64,000 nt of DNA from Microbacterium sp. RU1D (GTDB lineage: Bacteria > Actinomycetota > Actinomycetes > Actinomycetales > Microbacteriaceae), in NCBI RefSeq assembly GCF_900156435.1, contig NZ_FTPQ01000003.1, positions 248,001 through 312,000 of the forward strand. The letters are read 5' to 3'. The translations under genes and the position numbers were made by a program. Position 1 is the first letter of the stretch. Each line of letters starts with the position of its first letter. Shown piece by piece: positions 1 to 14,867 of the stretch. Under the pieces are notes generated by a model, which did no database searches, was not told the origin of the DNA, and saw only the letters and a list, made by a program, of their open reading frames with translations.

Positions 1-17
1 ACGAGGAAGTGAGCATC

Positions 18-1577
18 ATGTCATTCGAGATCTCTCGTCGCACGTTGTTGCAGGGCGCAGGAGCCGGGGCCTTCGGCCTTGCTCTCACCGCCGCTGGCCC
101 CGCGGCGGCTCGCGCCGACACCGTGTCGCAGCGTGCCGTTTACCACATGACCCCGCCGACGGCCTGGCTCTGCGATCCGCAGCGCCCGATCGTCTCGGGC
201 GGCCAGTATCAGCTTTACTACCTGCACTCGAACATCAACAACGGTCCGGGCGGGTGGGATCACGCGACCACCGACGGTGTGAGCTTCACGCATCACGGCA
301 CCGTGATGCCGATTTCGGGGGGCGTGCCCGTTTGGTCGGGCTGCCTCGTCGTCGACACGGCCAATACGGCGGGCTTCGGTGCCGGTGCGGTGATCGCGCT
401 CGCCACGCGTCCCACGAACAACGTCCGCAAGTACCAGGAGCAGTACCTGTACTGGTCGACCGACGGCGGGTTCAGCTTCACGATGCTGCCCGACCCCGTG
501 CTCGTCAACAACGACGGCCGCACCGCGCAAACCCCCGCCGAGATCGACAACGCCGAGTGGTGCCGTGACCCGAAGGTGCACTGGGACGCAGGACGCAACG
601 AATGGGTCCTGATCCTCGGACGCGCGCGATACGCCGGCATCTACACGTCGCCCGACCTGCGGAACTGGACGTGGCGGAGCAACTTCGACTACCCGAATCA
701 CGATCTCGGCGGTATCGAATGCCCCGACATCTTCCAGATGACCGCCGGCGACGGCACATCGCATTGGGTGATCGGGGCGAGCATGGACGCGTACGGTGTC
801 GGCCTCCCGATGACCTACGCGTACTGGACGGGCACGTGGAACGGCACGCACTTCCTCGCGGACGACCTCACCCCCCAGTGGCTGGACTGGGGATGGGACT
901 GGTACGCCGCGGTGACGTGGCCGAGCATCGAGGCACCCAACACCCGTCGCCTCGCGATCGCGTGGATGAACAACTGGAAGTACGCCGCACGAAACGTCCC
1001 CACCGACGCGACCGACGGCTACAACGGTCAGAACTCCATCGTCCGGGAGCTCCGTCTCGAGCACCAGCCAGACGGCCGATACACGCTGCTGAGCAGTCCG
1101 ATTTCGACATTGGCTACGCACGCTACGTCGACCGTGACCCTGCCCGACCGCACGGTCAACGGCAGCACCGTCCTCCCCTGGAGCGGACGAGCGTACGAAC
1201 TCGAACTCGATATCGCGTGGACCAACGCCACGAACGTCGGCGTCTCGGTGGGGCGCTCAGCGGACGGGTCCCGACACACCAACATCGGCAAGTACGGCTC
1301 CGACCTCTACGTCGACCGAGCGCCGTCGGATCGCAGCGGGTACTCCCTCGTCCCGTACACGCGTGCCGCGGCCCCGATCGATCCGGCCGCTCGCTCGGTC
1401 CACCTGCGGATCTTCGTCGACCGGCAGAGCGTCGAGGTGTTCGTCAACGCCGGCCACACGGTGCTCTCGCAGCAGGTCCACTTCCTGGACACGGACACCG
1501 GCATCTCGTTCTATTCGGACGGGGGTTCGGCCACCTTCACCGGCATCACGATCCGCGAGTTCGCGACCCCCGTGTGA
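18..1577 (+). CDS. lftA: Tat-exported GH32 enzyme, probable levan fructotransferase
   Basis: GH32 five-bladed propeller plus beta-sandwich protein, 519 aa. It starts with a twin-arginine signal (SRRTLLQG, residues 6-13) and a hydrophobic stretch ending near AARA, so it should act outside the cell. The catalytic triad is present: nucleophile D53 in WLCDPQRP, R183-D184-P185, and acid/base E234-C235. The WLCDPQRP form of the usual WMNDPNG box, and the overall sequence, match what I remember of Arthrobacter levan fructotransferase (EC 4.2.2.16), which converts levan to difructose dianhydride IV; this was recalled, not searched. ATG at 18 is preferred over GTG at 9 because GAGG at 3-6 leaves too short a gap for GTG. 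An exo-levanase or levanbiohydrolase is the alternative product specificity. Its own promoter lies outside the window. Confidence 0.82.
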   Translation: MSFEISRRTLLQGAGAGAFGLALTAAGPAAARADTVSQRAVYHMTPPTAWLCDPQRPIVSGGQYQLYYLHSNINNGPGGWDHATTDGVSFTHHGTVMPISGGVPVWSGCLVVDTANTAGFGAGAVIALATRPTNNVRKYQEQYLYWSTDGGFSFTMLPDPVLVNNDGRTAQTPAEIDNAEWCRDPKVHWDAGRNEWVLILGRARYAGIYTSPDLRNWTWRSNFDYPNHDLGGIECPDIFQMTAGDGTSHWVIGASMDAYGVGLPMTYAYWTGTWNGTHFLADDLTPQWLDWGWDWYAAVTWPSIEAPNTRRLAIAWMNNWKYAARNVPTDATDGYNGQNSIVRELRLEHQPDGRYTLLSSPISTLATHATSTVTLPDRTVNGSTVLPWSGRAYELELDIAWTNATNVGVSVGRSADGSRHTNIGKYGSDLYVDRAPSDRSGYSLVPYTRAAAPIDPAARSVHLRIFVDRQSVEVFVNAGHTVLSQQVHFLDTDTGISFYSDGGSATFTGITIREFATPV

Positions 1578-1924: not shown

Positions 1925-2926
1925 ATGTCGATGGAGACAAGAAAGCCCGTCACAATGAGCGATCTCGCTCGTGACCTCGGCATTTCACGCTCCGCCGTTT
2001 CTTTCGCGCTAAACAACGAGTCGCAGGTCTCGCGGGAGACGCGTGAACGCGTCATCGCCAAGGCGGCCGAACTCGGCTACCGGCCCAACGCCGGAGCACG
2101 AGCTCTGGCCGGCCAGAAGACCGACCTCTTCGGCCTTGTGACAGACATCGTCTCGACTCCTTTTGGCGGCGATCTGATCGCGGGCGCCCAGGAGTGGTTC
2201 TGGAGCCACGGGAAGTCGCTCCTGATCGCGGGAACCAGCACGCCCGAGCGTCCCGACGCGCGGTCGATCGAGATGATGCTCGAACACCGGGTGGGTGGCA
2301 TCCTTCTCGCGACCACCTGGAACCGCGCAATCGAGCTCCCCTCGTCCCTCGCGCACGTCCCCGTTGTGCTGGTGCACTGCTTCGACGCGCGCGGCGAGCG
2401 CCCGTCCGTCCTGCCCGACGAGGTCGAGGGCGGTCGAGCTGCAGCGCAGATGCTCATCGACGCGGGGCGGCGACGCATCGCGATGATCAACCTGCCGCCC
2501 GACATGGTGGCCGCGCGCGGCCGCCGTCACGGGTTCGAGGATGCTCTGACGAACGCAGGCATCGAGGCCGATCGAGACCTCATCGTCACGAGTGGCCCGG
2601 AAGCCGATTCGGCCTATCTTGCTGCGCACGACCTCCTTTCTCGACACGAGGTCGATGGCGTGTTCTGCGCGAACGACCGTATCGCCATGGGAACGTACGA
2701 CGCCGCGCGCGACCTTGGCCTCGCGATCCCGCGCGACCTCGCCGTCGTCGGGTTCGACAACCAGGAGATCATCGCTTCCTATCTCCGTCCTGCCCTCTCC
2801 ACGGTCGCGCTTCCCTTCCGGGAGATGGGCCGCCGCGGGGCAGAGCTTCTCACCCGGACCCACGACGGCGACCATCTCGAGCAGATCGTCGTCCCGTGCC
2901 CGCCCATCGTCCGAGATTCGGTGTAA
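1925..2926 (+). CDS. LacI-family transcriptional regulator
   Basis: 333 aa. The N-terminal LacI helix-turn-helix (about residues 11-60: TMSDLARDLGISRSAVSFAL, then the NAGARALAG hinge) precedes a periplasmic-binding-protein-like effector domain containing GVFCANDRIAMG and VVGFDN. It sits between the exported levan enzyme and the importer operon, so it is the likely local repressor, with a fructose-containing sugar or phosphate as probable inducer (inferred). GAGAG at 1916-1920 is close to ATG 1925; ATG 1931 is an equally good start on spacing. I could not identify its operator with confidence. Confidence 0.9.
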   Translation: MSMETRKPVTMSDLARDLGISRSAVSFALNNESQVSRETRERVIAKAAELGYRPNAGARALAGQKTDLFGLVTDIVSTPFGGDLIAGAQEWFWSHGKSLLIAGTSTPERPDARSIEMMLEHRVGGILLATTWNRAIELPSSLAHVPVVLVHCFDARGERPSVLPDEVEGGRAAAQMLIDAGRRRIAMINLPPDMVAARGRRHGFEDALTNAGIEADRDLIVTSGPEADSAYLAAHDLLSRHEVDGVFCANDRIAMGTYDAARDLGLAIPRDLAVVGFDNQEIIASYLRPALSTVALPFREMGRRGAELLTRTHDGDHLEQIVVPCPPIVRDSV

Positions 2927-2999: not shown

Positions 3000-4667
3000 A
3001 TGTCCCGCACACCTCTGCGTCGTTTCTGGCGCGCGTTAGTTGCCACTGCGGCGGTGGCAACCCTGGCCGGTTCGCTGTCCGCGTGTGCCCCGGGAGGCGG
3101 TGAGAACACCGACGGCCAGATCCTCCGGGTCGCCTCCATCGGAAACGCCTCCTTCACTCGGAACTTCAATCCCTTCTCGCCGACGGCACTCGACATGTCC
3201 AAGCGCGCGGTCTACGAGCCGCTCATGGTGGCCAACCTGGCCAAGGGTGAGATCGTGCCCTGGCTGGCGAAGAACTACGAGTGGAGCGCCGACGGGCTCA
3301 CGCTGACCTTCACCCTCAACGACGGGACCACGTGGTCCGACGGCAAGCCCCTGACCGCCGCCGACGTCGTGTACACGTTCGACCTCTCGCGCAAGGTCCT
3401 CGGCGACGCGACCTACGACTACGTCGGATCCGCCTCTGCGCCGGACGACACGACGGTCGAATTCTCCTTCACGCGGCCGTATACCCCGGGACTGTACGAA
3501 CTGGGCGGAATGCTCGTCGTTCCGCAGCACGTCTGGGAGACGGTGGACGACCCCTCGACGTACCAGAACCCTGACCCCGTCGGGTCCGGGCCGTTCACGC
3601 AGGTCGCGAACTTCTCGGCGCAGTCGTACGACCTTATGCGCAACCCGAACTACTGGCAGAAGGACAAGGCCGACTACGGCGGCATCCGCGTGATCGCCTA
3701 CGGCGGCAACGACGCGGCGAACATCGCGGCCATCAACGGCGATATCGACTTCGGCCTGGGCTTCATCCAGGACATCCAGAAGACGTACGTCGACGTCGAC
3801 CCGGAGCACCGCGGCTACTGGTTCCCCGCGGTGGGATCCACCATTTCGCTCAGCCTCAACACTACGCAGGCGCCGTACGACGACGTCAACCTCCGCAAGG
3901 CCGTCAGCATGGGCATCGACCGCGACGCCGTGGCGAAGAAGGGGATGAGCGGCTACACGCACCCCTCCGACTGCACCGGCCTCAGCGACGCGTACGACTC
4001 GTGGCGTGACCAGAGCGTCGTGGCATCCTGCGACTGGACGACCTACGACGTCACCGCCGCCAACGCCCTGCTCGACGCGTCGGGCTACCCGCGCGGAGCG
4101 GACGGCATGCGCACGACCCCGGCAGGCACACCTCTGACGTTCAACATCGGAGTCGGATCGGCCTCCACCGACTGGATCGCGGTCGCCCAGGTCATCTCCG
4201 ACGACATGAAGGATCTCGGCATCAGCGCACCGCTGCGCGTGCAGGACTGGTCGCAGATCAATCAGGAGCTTTTCGGCGGCACCTACACCGGCAACATCGC
4301 CTGGAGCGCGGCCGGCGTCACGCCGTACGAGTTCTACCGCAGCCAGATGTCGTGCAAGACGGTCAAGCCGGTGGGCGAGGAAGCGACACAGAACTTCCAC
4401 CGCTTCTGCAGCGAGAAGGCGGACCAGCTACTGGACCAGTTCGCTGCCGCGACCGACGAGGCCGCGCAGCACGACATCATGAACCAGCTGCAGGCCGTGT
4501 ACTCCGAGACGGCGCCGCAGGTCCCGCTGTTCCCCGGGCCGGAGTGGGGTGCGTACAACAGCACCAACTTCGTCGGGTGGCCGAGCGAGGACGACCCCTA
4601 CGCCACGCTCTCCCCGAGCGGGTCGAGCACCGTACTCGTCCTGACCACCATTCACCCGCGCGGCTGA
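3000..4667 (+). CDS. ABC importer substrate-binding lipoprotein (SBP family 5)
   Basis: 555 aa. Signal peptide with lipobox LSAC (26-29), so lipid-anchored at C29 outside the membrane. The body is a family 5 solute-binding protein (oligopeptide/nickel/oligosaccharide class), with the typical stretches EPLMVANLAKGEIVPWLAKN and LTAADVVYTF. The start is set by the strong ribosome site GAAAGGAAA just before ATG 3000. Some family members bind oligosaccharides, and its place between the levan enzyme and cytoplasmic fructan hydrolases suggests it captures a levan product such as DFA IV or short levan oligomers (inferred). It is followed by a strong hairpin, a common arrangement that lets the SBP be made in excess over the permeases. 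Confidence 0.9.
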   Translation: MSRTPLRRFWRALVATAAVATLAGSLSACAPGGGENTDGQILRVASIGNASFTRNFNPFSPTALDMSKRAVYEPLMVANLAKGEIVPWLAKNYEWSADGLTLTFTLNDGTTWSDGKPLTAADVVYTFDLSRKVLGDATYDYVGSASAPDDTTVEFSFTRPYTPGLYELGGMLVVPQHVWETVDDPSTYQNPDPVGSGPFTQVANFSAQSYDLMRNPNYWQKDKADYGGIRVIAYGGNDAANIAAINGDIDFGLGFIQDIQKTYVDVDPEHRGYWFPAVGSTISLSLNTTQAPYDDVNLRKAVSMGIDRDAVAKKGMSGYTHPSDCTGLSDAYDSWRDQSVVASCDWTTYDVTAANALLDASGYPRGADGMRTTPAGTPLTFNIGVGSASTDWIAVAQVISDDMKDLGISAPLRVQDWSQINQELFGGTYTGNIAWSAAGVTPYEFYRSQMSCKTVKPVGEEATQNFHRFCSEKADQLLDQFAAATDEAAQHDIMNQLQAVYSETAPQVPLFPGPEWGAYNSTNFVGWPSEDDPYATLSPSGSSTVLVLTTIHPRG

Positions 4668-4733: not shown

Positions 4734-6134
4734 ATGCAACGCTTCTTCAAGCCCGATCACGCTCGCGTGGGCGACACCATCCCGTACTTCCACGACGGCG
4801 TGTTCCACGTGTTCTACCTCAAGCGTTACGCGGACGACACCCACGACCGTATCCAGACGGACTGGTGGCATCTGACGACCACCGACTTCGTCGCCTTCGA
4901 CGAAGTCGGCACGGCAGTCCGCCGTGGCGGACCGGACGACGCGGACTACTCCGCCGCGACCGGCAGCGTCATCCGCATCGGCGACACCTTCTTCGCCTAC
5001 TCCACCGGATTCGCGCGGGAGCCGCTGTCGGAGGGAGCCCGACATCAGACGATCCTCCGTTGGCGCAGCCCCGACCTGCTCACGTGGGAGAAGGACCAGG
5101 ACTTCGCGCTCGTCGCCGACACCGAGCGCTACGACGCGAATGAATGGCGTGACCCGTCCGTGTTCCACGACGCCGAGGCCGGCGTCTACCGGATGCTCGT
5201 GGCCGGCGAGCTCAGGGACGGACCGGCCCACCGCCGCGGCGCGACCGTTCAGGCGACCTCGGTGAACGGTCTGGACTGGGAGATCGGCGATCCGCTGTGG
5301 GCGCCGGGCCTCTTCTCGGCGCACGAGTGCCCCGACCTCTTCCGGATCGGCGAGTACTGGTACCTCGTCTACTCCACACTCACGGACCGCACCGTCACCC
5401 GCTATCGCATGGCATCCTCCCTCGACGGTCCGTGGCTCGCCCCCGACGACGACGAGCTGGACGGACTGGGGCTGTACGCGGCGAAGACCGTGACCGACGG
5501 AACCACCCGCTATCTCGTGGGGTGGTGCCCGAACGCCACCGGCGGTGTCGACGGCGCCTCGTGGCTGTGGGGTGGCAACCTCATCGTCCACGAACTGCAC
5601 CAGCTCGCGGACGGCCGTCTCGCGGTCCGCCAGAACGCAGCGGCCCGGGCTGTGCTCGAGCGATCCACCGACGGCCCCGCGGTCGAATTCGCGGGAGCAC
5701 GAGTCGGGTCCGCGTACGGCTACGCCACGCACACACTCGCGACCATGCCGCACGCCGGGTTCGCAGACCTCACCCTGGACCCGGATGCCAAGGTTTTCGG
5801 CCTGGAACTCCGCACCGATAACGAGCGCGCCCACGGCTATCGCGTCTCGTTCGAACCCGCGCTGCGGCGATTCCGCATCGACCGCATCGACCGGTTCGGC
5901 GCCGACGCACCGTACGACAACCGCCCGCTGGACCTCCCCGCCGGGCCTCTCCGCCTCGCCCTCGAGTTCGATGGCGAGATCACCGTCGTCTACGTCAACG
6001 GACTCGTCGCCGCGACGCTGCGCGGTTACGACCTCCAGGGGAGCCAGCTCGGCGTCTTCGTCGAAGAGGGCGCCGTGGTCGTCGAATCCGGCTCCGTCCA
6101 TCCCCTGCAGCAGACCCCGAAGGAAGACCGATGA
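4734..6134 (+). CDS. Cytoplasmic GH32-like protein, divergent N-terminus
   Basis: 466 aa, no signal peptide. GH32 signatures are visible but the first is degenerate: the nucleophile box reads RVGDTIPYFHDG (D14) instead of WMNDPNG; R139-D140-P141 and acid/base E198-C199 are intact. After about residue 300 there is a C-terminal beta-sandwich. All three acidic residues are kept, so it is probably active on a beta-fructofuranoside, but the substrate is not predictable. It overlaps the GH172 gene by 4 bp (ATGA), so the two are probably translated in a coupled way and may act on the same imported sugar. GH43/68-clan relatives are an alternative family assignment. Confidence 0.78.
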   Translation: MQRFFKPDHARVGDTIPYFHDGVFHVFYLKRYADDTHDRIQTDWWHLTTTDFVAFDEVGTAVRRGGPDDADYSAATGSVIRIGDTFFAYSTGFAREPLSEGARHQTILRWRSPDLLTWEKDQDFALVADTERYDANEWRDPSVFHDAEAGVYRMLVAGELRDGPAHRRGATVQATSVNGLDWEIGDPLWAPGLFSAHECPDLFRIGEYWYLVYSTLTDRTVTRYRMASSLDGPWLAPDDDELDGLGLYAAKTVTDGTTRYLVGWCPNATGGVDGASWLWGGNLIVHELHQLADGRLAVRQNAAARAVLERSTDGPAVEFAGARVGSAYGYATHTLATMPHAGFADLTLDPDAKVFGLELRTDNERAHGYRVSFEPALRRFRIDRIDRFGADAPYDNRPLDLPAGPLRLALEFDGEITVVYVNGLVAATLRGYDLQGSQLGVFVEEGAVVVESGSVHPLQQTPKEDR

Positions 6135-7240
6135 CCGCCCCCTCCTGGCTGACGACTGCGCACGCCGACCTCGCGTCGGGAACGCGCTCCCGTTCATTCA
6201 CCGCCGAGAACCCCCGCGCCGAGGTCGGCGCCGGTGGGCGCTCGGCATCCATCCTCGGACCGACCCGAAAGGGGAGCCCGTGCATCACGCTGCCCGCGGG
6301 CGAGACGGTGACGCTCGCCGACGCTGCGGGTGCGGGAGAGATCCGTCACATCTGGTGCACCGTGTCCGATCACACCGAGGCGGTCGGATTCGTGCTGCGC
6401 GACCTCGTCCTGCGCATGTACTGGGACGGGTCCGATGTCCCCGCCGTCGAAGTCCCCCTCGGCGACTTCTTCTGCAACGGCAACGGGCAGCGCAGCCTCG
6501 TGACATCCGAGGTCGTGCTCGTCGCCCCGACCAGCGGGATGAACGCGTACTTCGCGATGCCGTTCTCCGACGGCGCTCGCATCACCATCGAGAATCAGCA
6601 CCCTCGCGACGTCGAAGGGTTCTTCTACCAGATCGACTATCTCGAGCGTCCGTCTGCCGCCGACGTCGGTGATCTGCGGTTCCACGCGCAGTTCCGGCGC
6701 GAGAACCCGACGACGATCGCTGAGGACTACACGCTCCTCGATGGCGTGGAGGGGCGAGGGGTCTTTCTCGGCTCGTACCTGTCGATCGTCGCGCTCGAGC
6801 GCTACTGGTGGGGCGAAGGCGAGATGAAGTTCTTCCTCGACGGCGACACCGACCTCCCCACTATCTGCGGCACGGGGACGGAGGACTATTACGGCGGAGC
6901 GTGGGCCTTCCAGGACCGCCTCTCGAACGAGGTCGAACCCGAGGTGCTGACCTACAGCGCCCCCTACGTCGGCTACCCGACCTACCTCACGCGCGATACG
7001 TCGAAGCAGGCGGTCTACGCCACGGCCATGGCGCCGCTGCACGGGATGTACCGCTGGCACCTGCCCGACCCCATCTACTTCCACGAGAACCTGCGTGTGA
7101 CGCTCCAGCAGATCGGGCAGGTCGGCCCCGACCTCGTGGAGCGGGCCGACGACGTTTCCTCCGTCGCCTACTGGTATCAGGACACCCCCGTCGGCACCGG
7201 CCGGTCCTTCCCGACCCGCTCCGAGCGCGCACCCCGTTAG
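6131..7240 (+). CDS. GH172 (DUF2961) protein, putative difructose dianhydride or fructofuranoside hydrolase
   Basis: 369 aa, no signal peptide. Family hallmarks are GEIRHIWCTV (69-78), YWDGSDVPAVEVPLGDFF (97-114), GEGEMKFFLDGD (228-239) and CGTGTEDYYGGAW (246-258). DUF2961 became GH172 when a Bifidobacterium member was shown to make and hydrolyse difructose dianhydride I; E231 and E251 here fall in the segments where, from memory, the two catalytic glutamates lie. The location inside an operon with GH32 enzymes and an importer supports a role on an imported difructose. Caution: characterised GH172 enzymes act on alpha-D-fructofuranosides or alpha-D-arabinofuranosides, while DFA IV is beta-linked, so the exact substrate is open. 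Confidence 0.82.
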   Translation: MTAPSWLTTAHADLASGTRSRSFTAENPRAEVGAGGRSASILGPTRKGSPCITLPAGETVTLADAAGAGEIRHIWCTVSDHTEAVGFVLRDLVLRMYWDGSDVPAVEVPLGDFFCNGNGQRSLVTSEVVLVAPTSGMNAYFAMPFSDGARITIENQHPRDVEGFFYQIDYLERPSAADVGDLRFHAQFRRENPTTIAEDYTLLDGVEGRGVFLGSYLSIVALERYWWGEGEMKFFLDGDTDLPTICGTGTEDYYGGAWAFQDRLSNEVEPEVLTYSAPYVGYPTYLTRDTSKQAVYATAMAPLHGMYRWHLPDPIYFHENLRVTLQQIGQVGPDLVERADDVSSVAYWYQDTPVGTGRSFPTRSERAPR

Positions 7241-7251
7241 GAGCGATCGAC

Positions 7252-8229
7252 ATGGCCTTCGTTCTCCGCCGACTGGGGTACTACCTCATCGCCTTCTGGG
7301 CGTCGCTGACCATCAACTTCCTGCTTCCCCGGCTGATCCCGGGCGACCCGGTCGGGCGCATGCTCGGCCAGATGCAGGGGTCGGTGACCGACGAACAGGT
7401 GCAGCAGTTCCGCCACCTGTTCGGCCTCGACGACCGCCCCATCCTGCTGCAGTACGTGCAGTACATCGGCGACGTCTTCACCGGCAACCTCGGACTGTCG
7501 ATCTCGCAGTTCCCGACGCCGGTCTCGCAGGTGATCGGAAATCAGCTGGGGTGGACCGTGCTCCTCGGCGGAACCGCGCTGATCATTGCCGTGGTCGCCG
7601 GCAATCTCCTCGGCATCTGGGCGGCCTGGCGACGAGGCGGGGTCCTGGACAACGTGTTCCCGCCGCTCCTGGTGTTCATCGGCTCCTTCCCCTACTTCTT
7701 CATCGCAATGATCGCGCTGTACCTGTTCGCGGTGGTCATGAAGTGGTTCCCGGTCGGGCAGGCCTTCACCCTGGGCAGGACGCCGTCCTTCAGCTTCCCG
7801 TTCATCGGTGACGTGCTGTGGCACTTGGTCCTGCCCGCCGGCACGATCGTCGCCATCTCGATCGGGGGCTGGATGCTCGGGATGCGCAACACAATGATCG
7901 CCACCTCCGCCGAGGACTACATCACGATGGCGCGCGCGAAAGGGCTGCGCGAGGGGCGCATCATGTACCGCTACGCCGCCCGCAACGCGATGCTCCCCTC
8001 GGTGACGTCGTTCGGAATGTCGATCGGATTCGTCGTCGGCGGCGCACTGCTGACCGAGGTGGTGTTCGCGTACCCCGGCATCGGCTACCAGCTGCTCCGC
8101 GCCGTGCAGGCCCTGGACTACCCGCTGATGCAGGGCATCTTCCTGACTCTCACGGCGGCCGTCCTGGTCGCCAACTTCCTGATCGACATCGTCTACGTGC
8201 GCCTCGACCCGCGCGTGCGAGTGAGGTGA
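7252..8229 (+). CDS. ABC importer permease 1 (DppB/OppB type)
   Basis: 325 aa integral membrane protein, about six membrane segments, of the binding-protein-dependent transport family that pairs with family 5 SBPs. The N-terminal signature FLLPRLIPGDP and the cytoplasmic EAA loop (EDYITMARAKGL) that docks on the ATPase are present. ATG 7252 follows GGAGCG 11 bp after the GH172 stop. It forms the membrane channel with the next permease. Confidence 0.93.
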   Translation: MAFVLRRLGYYLIAFWASLTINFLLPRLIPGDPVGRMLGQMQGSVTDEQVQQFRHLFGLDDRPILLQYVQYIGDVFTGNLGLSISQFPTPVSQVIGNQLGWTVLLGGTALIIAVVAGNLLGIWAAWRRGGVLDNVFPPLLVFIGSFPYFFIAMIALYLFAVVMKWFPVGQAFTLGRTPSFSFPFIGDVLWHLVLPAGTIVAISIGGWMLGMRNTMIATSAEDYITMARAKGLREGRIMYRYAARNAMLPSVTSFGMSIGFVVGGALLTEVVFAYPGIGYQLLRAVQALDYPLMQGIFLTLTAAVLVANFLIDIVYVRLDPRVRVR

Positions 8230-8232
8230 CCC

Positions 8233-9174
8233 ATGTCTCTGCAGAATTCCGGCTCGACTCTCGTCTCCACCGACACCATGTCGCGGCCCGGCGTGCCCGT
8301 ACGCACGCCCGTCTTCCGCGACCACTTCGTCGCCAGGCTCCTCCGCGACCGTCGCGCTCTGATCGGGATCATCATCCTGGTCGTGTTCGTCGCGGTCGCC
8401 CTGGCCGCTCCCCTGCTCGCCCCCGGCAGTCCGCGTGATGCCGTCGCCGACGGATCCGAAGCGCCCTCCGCGGCGCACCTGCTCGGGACCACACAGAAGG
8501 GCGAAGATGTCTTCGCGCTCCTCATCTGGGGGGCGCGCAGTTCCCTCGGGATCGGCTTCACCGTCGGGGCGCTCGCCACGATCGTGGGGCTCCTCGTCGG
8601 CCTCGCCTCGGCGTTCTTCGGCCGCGTCATCGACGACCTGCTCTCGGTCGTGACCAACATCTTCCTGCTGATCCCGGGTCTCCCGCTCCTGATCATCCTG
8701 GCGGCGTTCCTCCCCGCGGGCCCCGGCACAATCGTGCTGGTCCTCGTGGCCACCGGATGGGCGGGCTCGGCCCGTGTCATCCGCTCACAGGCCCTGTCCC
8801 TCCGGGGGAAGGACTACGTGGATGCCGCCGTGGTCACCGGCGAGCGCCCGGTGACGATCATGCTGCGCGAGATGCTCCCGAACATGGCATCCATCGTCAT
8901 GAGCACCTTCCTCGCCTGCGTGATCTTCGGCATCGGCGCACAGGCGGGGCTCGAGTTCCTCGGCCTCGGCGACGTCTCGGCCGTCAGCTGGGGCACCAAC
9001 CTCTACTGGTCGAGCATCGAAGGATCCATGATCCGGGGCACCTGGTGGACGTTCCTGCCGTCGGGCGTCGCGATCGCGCTCGTGGCGTTCTCGCTCGCGC
9101 TCGTCAACTACGCCGTCGACGAGATCACGAATCCCCGCCTGGTGTCGCGCAAGAAGAAGGGTCGCAACAAGTGA
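8233..9174 (+). CDS. ABC importer permease 2 (DppC/OppC type)
   Basis: 313 aa. N-terminal cytoplasmic tail, then about six membrane segments; OppC-type N-terminal module (LIGIIILVVFVAVALAAPLL) followed by the transport domain with EAA-like loop GKDYVDAAVVTG. It starts 3 bp after the first permease and overlaps the ATPase gene by 4 bp (GTGA), so the transporter genes are translated as a unit. Confidence 0.93.
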   Translation: MSLQNSGSTLVSTDTMSRPGVPVRTPVFRDHFVARLLRDRRALIGIIILVVFVAVALAAPLLAPGSPRDAVADGSEAPSAAHLLGTTQKGEDVFALLIWGARSSLGIGFTVGALATIVGLLVGLASAFFGRVIDDLLSVVTNIFLLIPGLPLLIILAAFLPAGPGTIVLVLVATGWAGSARVIRSQALSLRGKDYVDAAVVTGERPVTIMLREMLPNMASIVMSTFLACVIFGIGAQAGLEFLGLGDVSAVSWGTNLYWSSIEGSMIRGTWWTFLPSGVAIALVAFSLALVNYAVDEITNPRLVSRKKKGRNK

Positions 9175-10982
9175 ACACGATCGAGCAGCCCGCGGCGGTG
9201 CCCGGGCGCGGCGAACGGGGCGAGATCGTCCTCGAGGTGCAGAACCTCACCATCGCCTACGAGACCGCGGGCGACCCCGTCATCGCCGTCGACGACGTCT
9301 CCTTCACGATCCGCCGCGGCGAGACCTTCGGGTTGGCCGGCGAGTCCGGGAGCGGCAAGAGCACGATCGCGAACGCGATCCTGCAACTGCTCGGCGGCAA
9401 CGGCAGCATCGTCGGCGGTTCGATCCGTTGCGGAGACACCGACGTCAGCGCGCTGTCCGGGGAACAGCTGCGCATGTTCCGATGGAGCGACGTGTCGATG
9501 GTCTTCCAGAGCGCGATGAATTCCCTCAACCCCGTCCTCACGATCGGGGAACAGATTGTCGACGTTCTGATCACGCACCGAGACTTGTCACGATCGGCAG
9601 CACGCTCTCGAGCGCGCGAACTGTTGGAGCTGGTGGGCATCGACCCGGATCGCGTGACGGCTTTCCCGCACCAGTTGTCGGGCGGCATGCGGCAGAGGGC
9701 GGTGATTGCAATAGCCCTCGCGCTGGAACCGTCGCTGCTGATCATGGACGAGCCCACGACGGCTCTCGACGTCGTGGTGCAGCAGGAGATCATCCATGAG
9801 ATCACGCAGCTGCAGGCACGCCTGGGCTTCGCGATCCTCTTCATCACTCATGACCTCTCGCTCATGGTGGAGATCACCAAGAACCTTGGCGTCATGCGCA
9901 ACGGCAGGCTCCTGGAGATCGGGCCCTCCCGTGAGATCTACGCCAACCCTCAGCACGAGTACACGCGCCGCCTCATCGAGGCGTTCCCCCCGATCCGCTC
10001 ACGGTCGGTCGTCGACGACGCAGATGCCGAGGAGGAGTCCCCGTTCGGGGAGCCGGTGGTCGTGCTCGAAGACGTCACCAAGGTCTTCACCCAGGGCTCA
10101 CTGTTCCGCCGTCGCACCACGACCGCGGTCGACCGGGCGTCGCTGACGCTGCACAGCGGCGAGATCATGGCGCTGGTCGGCGAATCGGGCAGCGGGAAGA
10201 GCACGATCGCGCGCATCCTGGCGCGGCTGGAGAGCCCCACGTCGGGTCGCATCCTCGTCGATGGCCGCGACGTGCTCCGGGACGAGCCCCGGCGAGCGTC
10301 TCGTCGTTACCGCGGCACCGTTCAGATGGTGTTCCAGGACCCGTTCGGCTCCCTCAACCCCACTAAACGCATCAGCCACTTCCTTGAGCGTCCCCTCGCG
10401 ATCTACCTTCACGACCTGACGTCGGACCAACGCAGGGCCGCCGCCCGCGAGCTGATGGAATCCGTCGAGCTGTCGCCCGCTCTGCTGGAGCGCTACCCGC
10501 ACGAACTGTCGGGTGGCCAGCGCCAGCGCGTCGCGGTCGCCCGCGCTCTAGCGGTGAACCCCAAGGTGATCCTCGCGGACGAGCCGACGTCCATGCTGGA
10601 CGTGTCCGTGCGGATGGGCGTTCTGCTGCTCCTCAAGCGTCTGCGCGACGAACGCGGGATCTCGATCCTGTACATCACGCACGACCTCGCCTCCGCCCGG
10701 TTCGTGGCGGACAGCACCGTCGTCATGCTGCGCGGCGGCCTCGTCGAAGGAGGTCCCAGCGCCCAAGTCATGGATCACCCGCGACACCCATACACACGGC
10801 TGCTGCTCTCGGCCGCACCCGACCCGACGCGCGCCGTGCCCTTCGACCGCGTGGAGCGAGCCGACGCCCGGGCCGAGATCTCCGCGATCGTCGAGCGGCG
10901 CGCCGCGGCCGAGGCCCGTAGCGATCGACGCTTCGTGTCGGCCCGGCACTGGATCAGCCCCGACGGGCTCGCCGACGCGTGA
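9171..10982 (+). CDS. Double ABC ATPase (fused DppD-DppF type)
   Basis: 603 aa with two complete nucleotide-binding domains in one chain. Domain 1 has Walker A GESGSGKS (57-64), signature LSGGMRQR and Walker B LLIMDEP; domain 2 has Walker A GESGSGKS (337-344), LSGGQRQR and VILADEP. Each domain ends with an oligopeptide-transporter C-terminal motif (HEYTRRLIEAFPPI, HPYTRLLLSAAP). This fused form replaces the usual pair of separate ATPases and completes the importer. The GTG start at 9171 lies within the previous stop overlap. Confidence 0.93.
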   Translation: MNTIEQPAAVPGRGERGEIVLEVQNLTIAYETAGDPVIAVDDVSFTIRRGETFGLAGESGSGKSTIANAILQLLGGNGSIVGGSIRCGDTDVSALSGEQLRMFRWSDVSMVFQSAMNSLNPVLTIGEQIVDVLITHRDLSRSAARSRARELLELVGIDPDRVTAFPHQLSGGMRQRAVIAIALALEPSLLIMDEPTTALDVVVQQEIIHEITQLQARLGFAILFITHDLSLMVEITKNLGVMRNGRLLEIGPSREIYANPQHEYTRRLIEAFPPIRSRSVVDDADAEEESPFGEPVVVLEDVTKVFTQGSLFRRRTTTAVDRASLTLHSGEIMALVGESGSGKSTIARILARLESPTSGRILVDGRDVLRDEPRRASRRYRGTVQMVFQDPFGSLNPTKRISHFLERPLAIYLHDLTSDQRRAAARELMESVELSPALLERYPHELSGGQRQRVAVARALAVNPKVILADEPTSMLDVSVRMGVLLLLKRLRDERGISILYITHDLASARFVADSTVVMLRGGLVEGGPSAQVMDHPRHPYTRLLLSAAPDPTRAVPFDRVERADARAEISAIVERRAAAEARSDRRFVSARHWISPDGLADA

Positions 10983-11040: not shown

Positions 11041-12453
11041 GTGACGACCGAGATCTCGCCCGCGTCCGTCGTGCCGACGACGCGTCCCGTCGTGCATTTC
11101 GCACCTCAGCGCAACTGGATGAACGACCCCAACGGTCTGGTCTTTCACGACGGCGTCTACCACCTCTTCTTCCAGTACAACCCGCACGGGACGCAGTGGG
11201 GGAACATGAGCTGGGGCCATGCCACGAGCATCGATCTCGTGACCTGGACGGAGCACCCGGTGGCGCTCCTCTTCGACGATGACGCCCAGATCTTCTCCGG
11301 GTCGGTGGTCTGCGACGAGGACAACAGCTCGGGTCTCGGCGAGGCCGGTCGAGCGCCGCTCGTCGCGTTGTACACCGCCGCCGCACCGGACGGTCAGGCG
11401 CAGGCCCTCGCCTGGAGCAGCGACGGCGGAGCCACCTGGACGAAGCACGGGGTGGTCCTCGATCGCGGCACGGCGGACTTCCGCGACCCCAAGGTCCTCC
11501 GCGTCGACGACCACTGGGTGATGATCACGGTCGAGGCCGTAGACCGTCAGATGCACCTGTTCCGTTCGCGCGACCTCCTTCACTGGCATCCGCTTTCGGT
11601 CTTCGGACCGCAGGGTCCGACCGACGGGATCTGGGAGTGCCCCGACCTGTTCCGCGTCGGCGACGAATGGGTGATCACGCTGTCGGTCAACCCCGGGCAC
11701 CCCGCCGGGGGCTCGGGGATGCTCGCCTTCATCGGCGACTTCGACGGGGTGACGTTCACCGCTGATCGGTGGCAATGGCTCGACCACGGCCCCGACTACT
11801 ACGCCGGGGTGACGTTCAGCGGTCTGGACGAGCGCGTCATGATCGCCTGGCTCAACAACTGGGCGTACGCCCACGACCTCCCGGACGCCCCGTGGCGCGG
11901 GAGCATGGCGCTCCCCCGCACGATCGGCCTGCGCGAGGGCCGCGTCGTGCAGACGCCCGCGGTCGCCCCCCTCGAGATCATTCGGTTCGAGGCGACGGAC
12001 ATAGACGTCCCCTCGACGGGAGAGGTCATCCCCTCCCACGCGGTGGCGACGGCGGCACGCCTGCGTCTTCGGATCGGAGCAGGCTCCGGGCGCGTCACTC
12101 TGCGATGGGCGACCGCCGCCGCGGAGGGCACGACGGTGGTGGAGCTCACGCACACCGGAGACGAGCTGCTCCTCGAACGCCACGACATGGCGGGCGGGGC
12201 GAAGAACACTGCGTTCCCGTCCTCCGCACGCGCCACGCTCCCACCGGACGCCCCGGGCGCTCGAGACCTCGACGTGTGGATCGACGCCAACTCCATCGAG
12301 GTGTTCGCAGCCGGAGGCGCGGTGACTCTGAGTCTCCTGACGCTCGCCGACTACGGCGATGCGCCGATCATCATCGTCGCCGACGGGGCTCCCACGCGTC
12401 TGGAACACGTGAGTGTCACCGAACTGACCGCCGAGGGAGGTTTCCGTGTCTGA
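11041..12453 (+). CDS. Cytoplasmic GH32 beta-fructosidase (exo-levanase/sucrase type)
   Basis: 470 aa, no signal peptide. Textbook GH32: nucleophile D29 in NWMNDPNG, SGS at 86-88, R148-D149-P150, acid/base E199-C200, plus a C-terminal beta-sandwich ending near SIEVFAAGG. It should release fructose from the non-reducing end of short fructans, levanbiose or sucrose inside the cell. GTG 11041 follows AGGAGAACCCC. It lies 58 bp after the ATPase and overlaps the kinase gene by 8 bp, coupling sugar splitting to phosphorylation. Confidence 0.9.
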   Translation: MTTEISPASVVPTTRPVVHFAPQRNWMNDPNGLVFHDGVYHLFFQYNPHGTQWGNMSWGHATSIDLVTWTEHPVALLFDDDAQIFSGSVVCDEDNSSGLGEAGRAPLVALYTAAAPDGQAQALAWSSDGGATWTKHGVVLDRGTADFRDPKVLRVDDHWVMITVEAVDRQMHLFRSRDLLHWHPLSVFGPQGPTDGIWECPDLFRVGDEWVITLSVNPGHPAGGSGMLAFIGDFDGVTFTADRWQWLDHGPDYYAGVTFSGLDERVMIAWLNNWAYAHDLPDAPWRGSMALPRTIGLREGRVVQTPAVAPLEIIRFEATDIDVPSTGEVIPSHAVATAARLRLRIGAGSGRVTLRWATAAAEGTTVVELTHTGDELLLERHDMAGGAKNTAFPSSARATLPPDAPGARDLDVWIDANSIEVFAAGGAVTLSLLTLADYGDAPIIIVADGAPTRLEHVSVTELTAEGGFRV

Positions 12454-13348
12454 TCCCGACGTGCTGGTGATCGGCGAGGCGCTGGTCGACATCGTGGATG
12501 CGAGCGGCGCCGAGGTCGAGCACGTCGGCGGGAGCCCCGCCAATGTCGCGCTCGGCCTCGGGCGACGGGGACGCTCCGTCGCGCTCCTCACCCGGCTGGG
12601 CCAAGACGCGCGGTCGGACCTGATCGTCCGACACCTCCGGGAGTCGCACGTCGACGTCCTGCCGGACTCCTTTGGCGCCCGCGCGGCCTCTACCGCACGC
12701 GCCACGCTCGCAGCCGACGGCTCAGCCTCCTACCGCTTCGACATCGAGTGGGACCTGCCCGCCATCGTCCCGGACCTCAACCCCGCCCTGGTGCACACGG
12801 GCTCGCTGGCGCTGTTTCTCGACCCCGGCGCGTCGGAACTCGACCGTTTCCTCGACGGTCTTCGGGCGCCGGTGATCTCGGTCGACCCGAACATTCGCCC
12901 CGCGCTGCTGCCCGACCACGCGGTGGCGCTCCGGCGGTTCGAGGCGCTCGCGGCGCGGGCGACGCTCGTGAAGATGAGCGACGAGGATGCCGCGTGGCTC
13001 TACCCGGAGCTCTCCCTCGACGAGGCACTGCGCCGAACGCGTGCCGTCGGTGCGCGTCTGGCGGTCGGCACGCGCGGGGCGCACGGCGCGATCCTCCTCG
13101 GACCGTCTTCACGTGTCGAGATCGCCGGCGTCACCACTTCCGTCGCCGACACCATCGGCGCCGGCGACACGTTCATGGCATCCCTCATCGACGACTATCT
13201 CGCCTCGACGGGCGAGCTCGACGCGACGCTTCTCCGAGTCCTCGGCACCCGCGCCGCCACCGCCGCCGCGCTCACCGTCTCGCGCCCCGGCGCCGACCTT
13301 CCGTGGGCTGCGGAACTCGGCACCACGGGCCGGTCTGCATCCCTCTGA
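12446..13348 (+). CDS. PfkB-family carbohydrate kinase, probable fructokinase
   Basis: 300 aa ribokinase-fold kinase. It opens with VLVIGEALVDI, has the substrate-side GGSPANVALGLGRRG, and the C-terminal PfkB signature DTIGAGDTF with catalytic base D241. Fructokinases and ribokinases share this layout; the GH32 context makes ATP-dependent conversion of fructose to fructose 6-phosphate the natural role, feeding glycolysis. Strong ribosome site GGGAGG directly before GTG 12446; 8-bp overlap with the preceding GH32 gene. Confidence 0.88.
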   Translation: MSDPDVLVIGEALVDIVDASGAEVEHVGGSPANVALGLGRRGRSVALLTRLGQDARSDLIVRHLRESHVDVLPDSFGARAASTARATLAADGSASYRFDIEWDLPAIVPDLNPALVHTGSLALFLDPGASELDRFLDGLRAPVISVDPNIRPALLPDHAVALRRFEALAARATLVKMSDEDAAWLYPELSLDEALRRTRAVGARLAVGTRGAHGAILLGPSSRVEIAGVTTSVADTIGAGDTFMASLIDDYLASTGELDATLLRVLGTRAATAAALTVSRPGADLPWAAELGTTGRSASL

Positions 13349-13382: not shown

Positions 13383-14867
13383 ATGCGCCCGACTTACCAC
13401 TTCAGCGTGCCGGACAACTGGAAGAACGACCCCCAGCGGCCGATCTACCTCGACGGCGAATACCACTACTACTACCTCTACAACGCCGACTACATCGCAG
13501 GGCGCATCGGCACCTCCTGGCGTCGGGCGACGACCCGCGACCACGTCACGTTCCAGGACCGCGGTGTCGCCGTACCGAAGTCCGGCGTGAACGGCGACTG
13601 CTGGTCGGGATGCCTCGTGGTCGACGACCGCAACACGGCCGGTTTCGGCGCGGGGGCGGTGGTCGCCCTGATCACCCAGGCTCCGGGAGGCGTGCAGGGC
13701 CAATACCTCTGGTACTCCACCGACGGCGGCGCGACGTTCGCGTCGGCCGGCGATGATCCGGTGCTGGCCAACCCCGGTGTGCCCGATTTCCGCGACCCCA
13801 AGGTGATCTGGGACACCGATCGCGATCGGTGGTTCATGGTGAACGCCGAGGGCTTCGAGTTGGGGTTCTACGTATCGACCGATCTACGGACGTGGACGGA
13901 GGTGGGGCGTTTCGAGCGCACGGACATCGGCCTGCTGGAATGCCCCGACATCTTCCGCATGACCGCTGACGATGGAACGCGCCATTGGATTCTCGCGACC
14001 AGCGCGAACGGCAAGGACCGGGGCCTCCCTGCCACCTACGCGTACTGGACCGGTGACTTCGACGGCGAATCCTTCCTCCCCGACCGCACCGAACCGGAAT
14101 GGCTGGACTACGGCTTCGACTTCTACGGCGCGGTGACCTATCCGCACCACGACGACGAGGGGCGCGAGACCGACACGCTCCGCCATGCATTGGGGTGGGC
14201 GAACTTCTGGGATTACCCGCATAACACCCCGACCCTTGTCACCGATGGGTACAACGGAGACGACATGATCGTCCGCGATGTGAGACTGGTCGCCGACGCG
14301 GGCGTGTACTTCCTCGCCTCGACACCCACTGCCGCACTCGACGACTACGCCGGCGATACGCGAGTGCTCGGCGATGTCGAAGTGGCCGACGTCTTCGACC
14401 TCGACATCGAGTCCCTCGCCGCGGACATCAGGTGCGAGATCACCTGGGATGCCGAGACTGCTCCCCGCGCCGTCGGGTTCGAAATCTGCAGAGCACGCCA
14501 GGGGGGCCGGTTCGTCCGCGCGGGCCTATCCCTGGAGGACGCCTACGTTTACGTCGACCGACGCAACACGATCAGCCCATCGGGCGGTGAGACGCGGACG
14601 TCGGTCGATTTCGGGTCTAGCGCAACACCGGTCCGAATCCTCATCGACCAGACGAGTGTCGAGGTCTTCTTCGGACAGGGAAGGGTAGTCCACTCGCACC
14701 GCGTGTTCCCTCTCAAGGGCGACACTCATCTTCGGCTGTACGCACAGGGAGGGCGCGCGGTCTTCCGCAACCTGACGGTGCGTAGTCTCCGCGTCGACGA
14801 GATTGCGGCGACGTCAGATATAGTCGAGCCTCCGAAGACCCCTCGGGCCTCGTCCGAGCTCCAGTAA
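13383..14867 (+). CDS. Cytoplasmic GH32 protein of the levan fructotransferase-like subgroup
   Basis: 494 aa, no signal peptide. Its first box is NWKNDPQRPIYLDG (nucleophile D16), clearly closer to the exported lftA product (WLCDPQRP, shared WSGCLVVD and NTAGFGAGAV) than to canonical GH32 enzymes. R137-D138-P139 and E186-C187 complete the triad. It looks like an intracellular paralogue of the levan fructotransferase, perhaps a levanbiose- or DFA-releasing or -cleaving enzyme (inferred). Start at ATG 13383, 34 bp after the kinase stop with an AAAGGA ribosome site. It is the last intact gene of the locus, ending 17 bp from a decayed gene on the other strand. Confidence 0.85.
   Translation: MRPTYHFSVPDNWKNDPQRPIYLDGEYHYYYLYNADYIAGRIGTSWRRATTRDHVTFQDRGVAVPKSGVNGDCWSGCLVVDDRNTAGFGAGAVVALITQAPGGVQGQYLWYSTDGGATFASAGDDPVLANPGVPDFRDPKVIWDTDRDRWFMVNAEGFELGFYVSTDLRTWTEVGRFERTDIGLLECPDIFRMTADDGTRHWILATSANGKDRGLPATYAYWTGDFDGESFLPDRTEPEWLDYGFDFYGAVTYPHHDDEGRETDTLRHALGWANFWDYPHNTPTLVTDGYNGDDMIVRDVRLVADAGVYFLASTPTAALDDYAGDTRVLGDVEVADVFDLDIESLAADIRCEITWDAETAPRAVGFEICRARQGGRFVRAGLSLEDAYVYVDRRNTISPSGGETRTSVDFGSSATPVRILIDQTSVEVFFGQGRVVHSHRVFPLKGDTHLRLYAQGGRAVFRNLTVRSLRVDEIAATSDIVEPPKTPRASSELQ

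Follow-up and report, generated by a model that had tools for sequence, protein, structure and literature searches.

The GH172 gene and its operon

The window analysed here is a 64,000 nucleotide stretch of Microbacterium sp. RU1D (assembly GCF_900156435.1, contig NZ_FTPQ01000003.1, positions 248,001 to 312,000). It contains a gene of glycoside hydrolase family 172 (GH172, DUF2961) at 6131..7240 on the forward strand, with an ATG start and a product of 369 amino acids, which is considered here as a possible alpha-fructofuranosidase working with its neighbour. The product matches the Pfam profile PF11175 (DUF2961) at 284 bits (E 8.5e-85, cut-off 27) and is the only PF11175 match in its own genome. 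The solved chains that match it are all DUF2961/GH172, these being 8ic8 (263 bits), 4kq7 (166 bits; assigned to DUF2961 via structural comparison and PMC8605356), 8ah3 (139 bits) and 7v1v (126 bits). No signal peptide is seen; signal peptides and the lipobox were judged by eye throughout.

An AlphaFold2 (AF2) model of the protein has a predicted local distance difference test score (pLDDT) of 91.3. Its structural alignment with 8ic8 gives Z 45.5 (root mean square deviation 2.0 over 341 residues, 42% identity), followed by 4kq7 at Z 38.5 and 8ah3 and 7v1v, both at Z 37.8. Below the GH172 structures come viral coat proteins, with Z no higher than 13.0. The protein is predicted to have the double jelly-roll fold that marks the family. 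A sequence-only reading of this stretch had placed the protein in GH172, and the profile, solved-chain and fold evidence confirms this.

The gene lies in an operon with an Opp-type transporter, in which all of the genes are on the forward strand. A LacI-family regulator (1925..2926), recognised by a profile match and present at the same position in relatives, is followed by an SBP_bac_5 (Opp-type) substrate-binding lipoprotein (SBP, 3000..4667) with a profile match and a lipobox. The best named solved match of the SBP is the chitin-oligosaccharide-binding protein 1zty, at 246.6 bits, which is consistent with a sugar importer. Next is a 'VGD'-type GH32 gene, here GH32x (4734..6134), encoding 466 amino acids with intact VGD, RDP and ECPD motifs and no signal peptide. 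Its best solved match is 6r3r (154 bits), and 6r3u, the endo-levanase BT1760, is at 151 bits. Beyond GH172 there are Opp-type permeases 1 (7252..8229) and 2 (8233..9174), which have orthologues by phmmer and take their family name from gene order, an ATP-binding cassette (ABC) ATPase (9171..10982) and an exo-type GH32 like beta-fructofuranosidases (11041..12453; profile match, no signal peptide). A fructokinase-like PfkB sugar kinase (12446..13348; 96 bits, under the NCBIfam cut-off of 450) and a GH32 like the endolevanase LevB1 (LevB, 13383..14867; 446 bits to 9h8i) complete the series. The ATPase is a single 603 amino acid frame, where Micrococcaceae relatives have two separate ATPase genes. 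Four GH32 genes and the fructokinase-like kinase lie within 8 kb around GH172.

The end of GH32x and the start of GH172 overlap by 4 bp (ATGA), as the sequence-only reading had stated, and each of the five operons found of this type has the overlap. The order LacI, SBP_bac_5, GH32x, GH172, two permeases, ATPase and exo-GH32 is seen at these five loci, which are the window (G000), Microbacterium stercoris (L002), Microbacterium sp. APC 3901 (L003), Rathayibacter sp. Leaf185 (L005, the same as G301) and G221. The genomes searched were family samples of 398 Microbacteriaceae and 295 Micrococcaceae, and the gene content of relatives is that given by phmmer matches to proteins of the window and of its own genome, so that genes with no homologue among these queries go unseen.

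The pair of GH32x and GH172 stands between the SBP and permease 1 in 5 of 30 Opp loci. Twenty of the 30 are Micrococcaceae loci, chosen by their LevB-like endolevanase (the LevB-type matches in G482, G499, G516 and G498 were not fetched). All 20 have LacI, SBP, both permeases, ATPases and LevB, with neither GH32x nor GH172, and in each the gap between the SBP and permease 1 is no more than 147 bp. Among the 398 Microbacteriaceae genomes, 8 have the SBP, with the pair in G000, G221 and G301 and without it in G392, G384, G076, G339 and G397; LevB is present in 2 of these last five stretches. Beside the GH172-free Opp operon of G397 (L327), a VGD-type GH32 gene and a LacI gene are divergently arranged. 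Because 25 of the 30 Opp loci lack the pair, it is read as a lineage-specific insertion of two genes, about 2.5 kb, into an older levan-oligosaccharide operon, and this would be an insertion rather than a loss elsewhere.

The LevB gene of the window starts at ATG 13383 without a leader of the twin-arginine translocation (Tat) kind, and the LevB genes of L002 and L003 carry one. By eye, a Tat-like leader is also seen in 16 of the 20 Micrococcaceae loci; L243, L249 and L255 are unclear, and the leader of L260, though in frame, has no usual start codon. The LevB-like enzyme is probably cytosolic in this genome. This has a bearing on one explanation of the GH172 protein, namely that it is a salvage enzyme, reopening by-products, cyclic or alpha-linked, that arise intracellularly as dead ends when the GH32 enzymes of the operon process levan oligosaccharides. 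An endolevanase without an export leader would fit such a role, as would an Opp operon that does without GH172 in 25 of 30 loci. GH32 enzymes are beta-retaining, however, so that their by-products would be expected to be beta rather than alpha, and the LevB leader is retained in L002 and L003, both of which have the pair. The salvage role is quite improbable.

Active site and clade assignment

Pairwise and multiple alignments place the predicted acid/base of the GH172 protein at E229 and the nucleophile at E251, equivalent to E270 and E291 of alphaFFase1 from Bifidobacterium dentium. The multiple alignment includes an alphaFFase1-type protein (L295), with the numbering matched at W267. The sequence-only reading had singled out E231 and E251 for mutation. 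E251 stands, whereas E231 aligns with N272, and a mutation there would not touch the predicted acid/base, E229. The predicted -1 subsite is made up of W226, D252, W258, A259 and F165, so that the glutamate pair and the W226, D252 and W258 of the family are all present. W226, E229, E251 and D252 are invariant across 34 aligned rows.

Residue 259 is a position at which the two characterised types of GH172 differ. Gly299 of alphaFFase1 admits the hydroxymethyl group of fructose, and in ExoMA1 (8ic8), the exo-alpha-D-arabinofuranosidase of Microbacterium arabinogalactanolyticum, Asn253 occupies that space (PMC10509167). The GH172 protein has Ala here, which is small, yet not the Gly of alphaFFase1. 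In a 47-row alignment the position is Ala in 18, Ser in 13 and Gly in 1 of the 32 rows of its own clade, Asn in 7 and Asp in 1 of the 8 ExoMA1-type rows, and Gly in L295; the ExoMA1-type label was given on lower identity and on motifs near position 259, so this comparison is partly circular, and the tree is the independent support. The clade also has Phe165 where other rows have Tyr.

In the tree, the GH172 proteins of the five operons form one group (100/100) and the ExoMA1-type proteins another (100/100), 8ic8 itself not being among the rows. The fork that defines the 32-row clade has values of 84/93, not enough to count as strong support, and several outside rows are on long branches. As judged from these alignments and the tree, the protein is a member of a third, uncharacterised clade beside the alphaFFase1 and ExoMA1 types. 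Its -1 site looks suited to fructose, and the leaving-group side looks new.

These data also address the explanation that the protein is an ExoMA1-like alpha-D-arabinofuranosidase, placed in a fructan operon by chance. ExoMA1 is its best match by both sequence and structure, and alphaFFase1 also cuts alpha-D-arabinofuranosides (PMC8605356), so activity of this kind in vitro is likely. The separate tree groups and the Ala in place of Asn253 speak against it, as do the fructan enzymes around the gene and a genome with no match to GH183 (PF13810). This explanation is improbable, and a role on D-arabinan is disfavoured by residue 259, the tree and the absence of GH183. GH183 is absent in all five operon genomes and present in 4 of 7 ExoMA1-type genomes. 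The preference of the sequence-only reading for a fructoside over an arabinan role is borne out by this absence and by the small residue 259. It had also offered activity on alpha-arabinofuranosides, with none on fructose disaccharides, as a refutation of that role; arabinofuranoside activity would be a weak refutation, because alphaFFase1 has it as well (PMC8605356).

The levan fructotransferase module

A levan fructotransferase gene of the type forming difructose dianhydride (DFA) IV is found at 9..1577 on the forward strand, 4.6 kb upstream of GH172, with 900 bits to 4fff and a Tat-like leader. Together with the endolevanase-like LevB, it supports the earlier view of this region as a levan or fructan locus. 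There are seven GH32 matches in the genome, six of them in one cluster. The fructotransferase belongs to a module that is mostly upstream of the window, consisting of a second VGD-type GH32 (GH32x2), SBP_bac_1, two permeases, LacI and an exo-GH32, and then the fructotransferase. GH32x2 (G000:C4:240829-242295, L092:4829-6295) is outside the window; it has no signal peptide and its solved matches are BT1760-like, at 139-141 bits.

Full-length fructotransferase orthologues of at least 67% identity are present in 13 of the 398 Microbacteriaceae and 13 of the 295 Micrococcaceae genomes, a partial match in G696 (69%, residues 29-234) being excluded. The SBP, permease and LacI genes adjoin the fructotransferase in 24 of these 26 stretches and GH32x2 in 23. 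Of the three loci without GH32x2, the contig ends too early in L158, only weak matches are seen in L156, and there are none in L157, where the contig ends 3.8 kb beyond. GH172 (E 1e-30) is found anywhere in the genome in just three cases, the genome of the window, G120 and G431, and in none of the other 23. Lowering the cut-off to 55% adds G042, G360 and G623 (55-56%), among which G360 has GH172, so that 25 of 29 are without it. Conversely, four of the five genomes with the GH172 operon have no fructotransferase of at least 67%, the best matches being 44% in L002, 46% in L003, 33% in L005 (G301) and 35% in G221. Going by the gene order of relatives, the fructotransferase does not belong to the GH172 operon. 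One Micrococcaceae genome has, about 13 kb from its levan fructotransferase, a same-clade GH172 accompanied by CUT1 genes of its own (L227, G431:C1:953900-973000; L226).

The sequence-only reading had proposed DFA IV as a substrate, in which case GH172 would be the intracellular DFA IV hydrolase downstream of the secreted levan fructotransferase. The fructotransferase gene 4.6 kb away favours this, as do the spacing in G431 and a GH172 about 35 kb from the 56%-identical fructotransferase of G360. DFA IV, however, is di-beta-fructofuranose 2,6':6,2', in which both linkages are beta and none is alpha (PMC8605356, PMC6245366), and the GH172 enzymes characterised so far act specifically on alpha bonds (PMC8605356, PMC10115798). 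The distribution set out above also runs counter to it, GH172 being missing from most fructotransferase genomes and the fructotransferase from most operon genomes. The fructotransferase has other conserved partners, among them a GH32 of its own. The proposal is highly improbable, and it was rejected on co-occurrence and anomer.

GH32x2 is a better candidate DFA IV hydrolase than GH172, because it is a conserved neighbour of the fructotransferase (23 of 26 loci). A literature search, outside which most subscription papers lay, found the DFA IV-forming enzyme and no DFA IV hydrolase gene. If GH32x2 is the DFA IV hydrolase, the pathway from levan through DFA IV would be complete.

GH172 genes of the same clade in other genomes

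A GH32 gene is found within 9.5 kb of GH172 in 13 of 55 loci of the same clade, one of which (L088) is doubtful, and in none of 19 ExoMA1-type loci. The 55 loci exclude short contigs (such as L020, L023, L029, L045-L047, L049 and L053) and the duplicate L005, and some flanks are shorter than 9.5 kb. On the ExoMA1-type side, the 19 loci do not include G341, G220 or the second GH172 of G187, and G694, G525, G536 and G433 were placed by identity only. The loci counted are not independent of one another, and the difference is not put forward as significant.

Sister GH172 genes are located beside a CUT1 transporter and LacI, with no GH32 recognised by the queries used. This suggests that the clade can serve a single-enzyme pathway, as it would if GH32x and GH172 serve different sugars and GH172 acts on some other alpha-fructofuranoside or alpha-arabinofuranoside, a plant or microbial metabolite brought in by the same transporter. 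The 4 bp overlap with GH32x in five of five operons argues instead for one shared pathway, and separate sugars for the two enzymes are rather unlikely.

In Bifidobacterium, GH172 is present in 40 of 101 genomes, and one of five stretches fetched (L295) is of the alphaFFase1 type. GH32x2-like genes are found 3-5 kb from GH172 genes of the clade, on the opposite strand, in L025, L035, L040 and L041 (Bifidobacterium) and in L042 (Clostridiales).

Proposed function

Family traits of GH172 include an active site at the interface between subunits and the retaining cleavage of alpha-D-furanosides. The members characterised so far act on alpha-D-fructofuranosides or alpha-D-arabinofuranosides (PMC8605356, PMC10115798, PMC10509167), the reported activities being those of alpha-fructofuranosidase/DFA I hydrolase and alpha-D-arabinofuranosidase (PMC8605356, PMC10509167). 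There is about an even chance that the GH172 protein acts in the cytosol as an anomer-retaining alpha-D-fructofuranosidase, working with GH32x on a small imported fructose sugar. The fructofuranosidase reading is adopted because residue 259 is small, fructan enzymes are nearby, GH183 is absent and the GH172 family is alpha-specific. The Opp-type transporter of the levan-oligosaccharide operon would import a small fructose disaccharide or dianhydride. GH172 would then cut the alpha-D-fructofuranosyl bond, with E229 as acid/base and E251 as nucleophile, for example to open a difructose dianhydride. The beta bond left over would fall to GH32x and the neighbouring exo-GH32, with the PfkB kinase phosphorylating the fructose released.

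Several results weigh against this. The whole chain is nearer to the D-arabinofuranosidase ExoMA1 than to alphaFFase1, by sequence as well as structure. A small residue 259 is not specific to the clade, since six further outside rows have Gly (5) or Cys (1). The +1 residues Glu85 and Lys147 of alphaFFase1, both of which it requires for inulobiose (PMC8605356), have no counterpart, being gaps in the multiple alignment, with V131 at Lys147 in the pairwise one. In 42 of the 55 clade loci no GH32 is seen nearby with the GH32 queries used. LevB is present in only three of the five pair loci and was not seen in G221 and G301, which makes the link to levan weaker there. A gene for making an alpha-linked dianhydride was not found in the genome, but the test for GH91 had no valid positive control. 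PF12708 matched neither this genome nor the Blautia hansenii genome intended as that control, and PF13229 gave two weak matches in this genome, in frames not GH91-like in appearance; no GH91 query sequence was used. Finally, PMC11538131 reports that none of five Blautia strains, including B. hansenii JCM 14655, degraded DFA I. Another B. hansenii strain (L015) carries a GH172 of the clade. DFA I is therefore a doubtful substrate.

It is a tentative and unlikely possibility that the clade represents a new GH172 specificity, for a levan-type dianhydride in which one bond is alpha-fructofuranosyl and which the enzyme would hydrolyse or reversibly form. The dianhydride might be DFA V (1,2':2,6'), for which a characterised forming enzyme was lacking as of 2008 (PMC6245366), or else an alpha,beta isomer of DFA IV made from levanbiose. 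GH32x would finish the degradation, and GH32x2 would be the DFA IV hydrolase.

Comparison with characterised systems

The alpha-fructofuranosidase proposed here can be compared with alphaFFase1 (BBDE_2040; 7v1v), the GH172 DFA I synthase/hydrolase of B. dentium (PMC8605356). The two share family, fold (Z 37.8), catalytic pair and the W/E/E/D/W of the -1 subsite, and the B. dentium operon has the same logic of LacI, GH32, GH172 and ABC transporter (PMC8605356). The match is only 126 bits, however. In addition to the loss of E85 and K147, Tyr187 is replaced by Phe and Gly299 by Ala, and there are differences at the positions that align with its calcium ligands Asn31, Asp33 and Asn272. The transporter is Opp-type here and CUT1-type there, and the GH32 next to the alphaFFase1-type gene of L295 is of the WINDPNG rather than the VGD type.

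ExoMA1 is the closest solved relative and of similar length, and it is described as intracellular (PMC10509167), the location also proposed here. The GH172 protein differs from it in the Ala at the fructose-excluding Asn253, in having Phe165 against the Tyr of the ExoMA1-type rows, and in its tree group, and its locus, in a genome with no GH183 match, is one for fructan and not D-arabinan.

For the GH32 enzymes, the closest solved relative of both GH32x (151-154 bits) and GH32x2 (139-141 bits) is the endo-levanase BT1760 (6r3u, PMC6560043), in which the Asp of VGD is the nucleophile. BT1760 has a signal peptide, whereas none is seen in GH32x and GH32x2, which may act on small imported sugars. 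The product of 9..1577 is a close relative of the Paenarthrobacter (Arthrobacter) ureafaciens levan fructotransferase (GH32, 4fff/4ffg; 900 bits), but its gene is in a separate module and appears dispensable for the GH172 operon, with four of the five genomes lacking it at 67%. Dianhydride pathways in three stages, from inulin through DFA III in Arthrobacter and, as proposed, through DFA I in Streptomyces davawensis (PMC8605356), consist of a fructotransferase with a leader, ABC uptake genes and leaderless hydrolases, and all of these are also present here. The difference is that the fructotransferase is levan-type and sits with GH32x2 in a CUT1 module of its own, while GH172 is in the neighbouring Opp module.

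The family, the fold and the logic of the operon are known. As far as could be seen, new variations on them are the clade and the signature of its active site, the Opp setting and the VGD-type GH32 coupled to GH172. The locus offers a third GH172 clade with a signature of its own (Phe165, a small residue 259 and no alphaFFase1 +1 subsite), set in a defined two-enzyme context.

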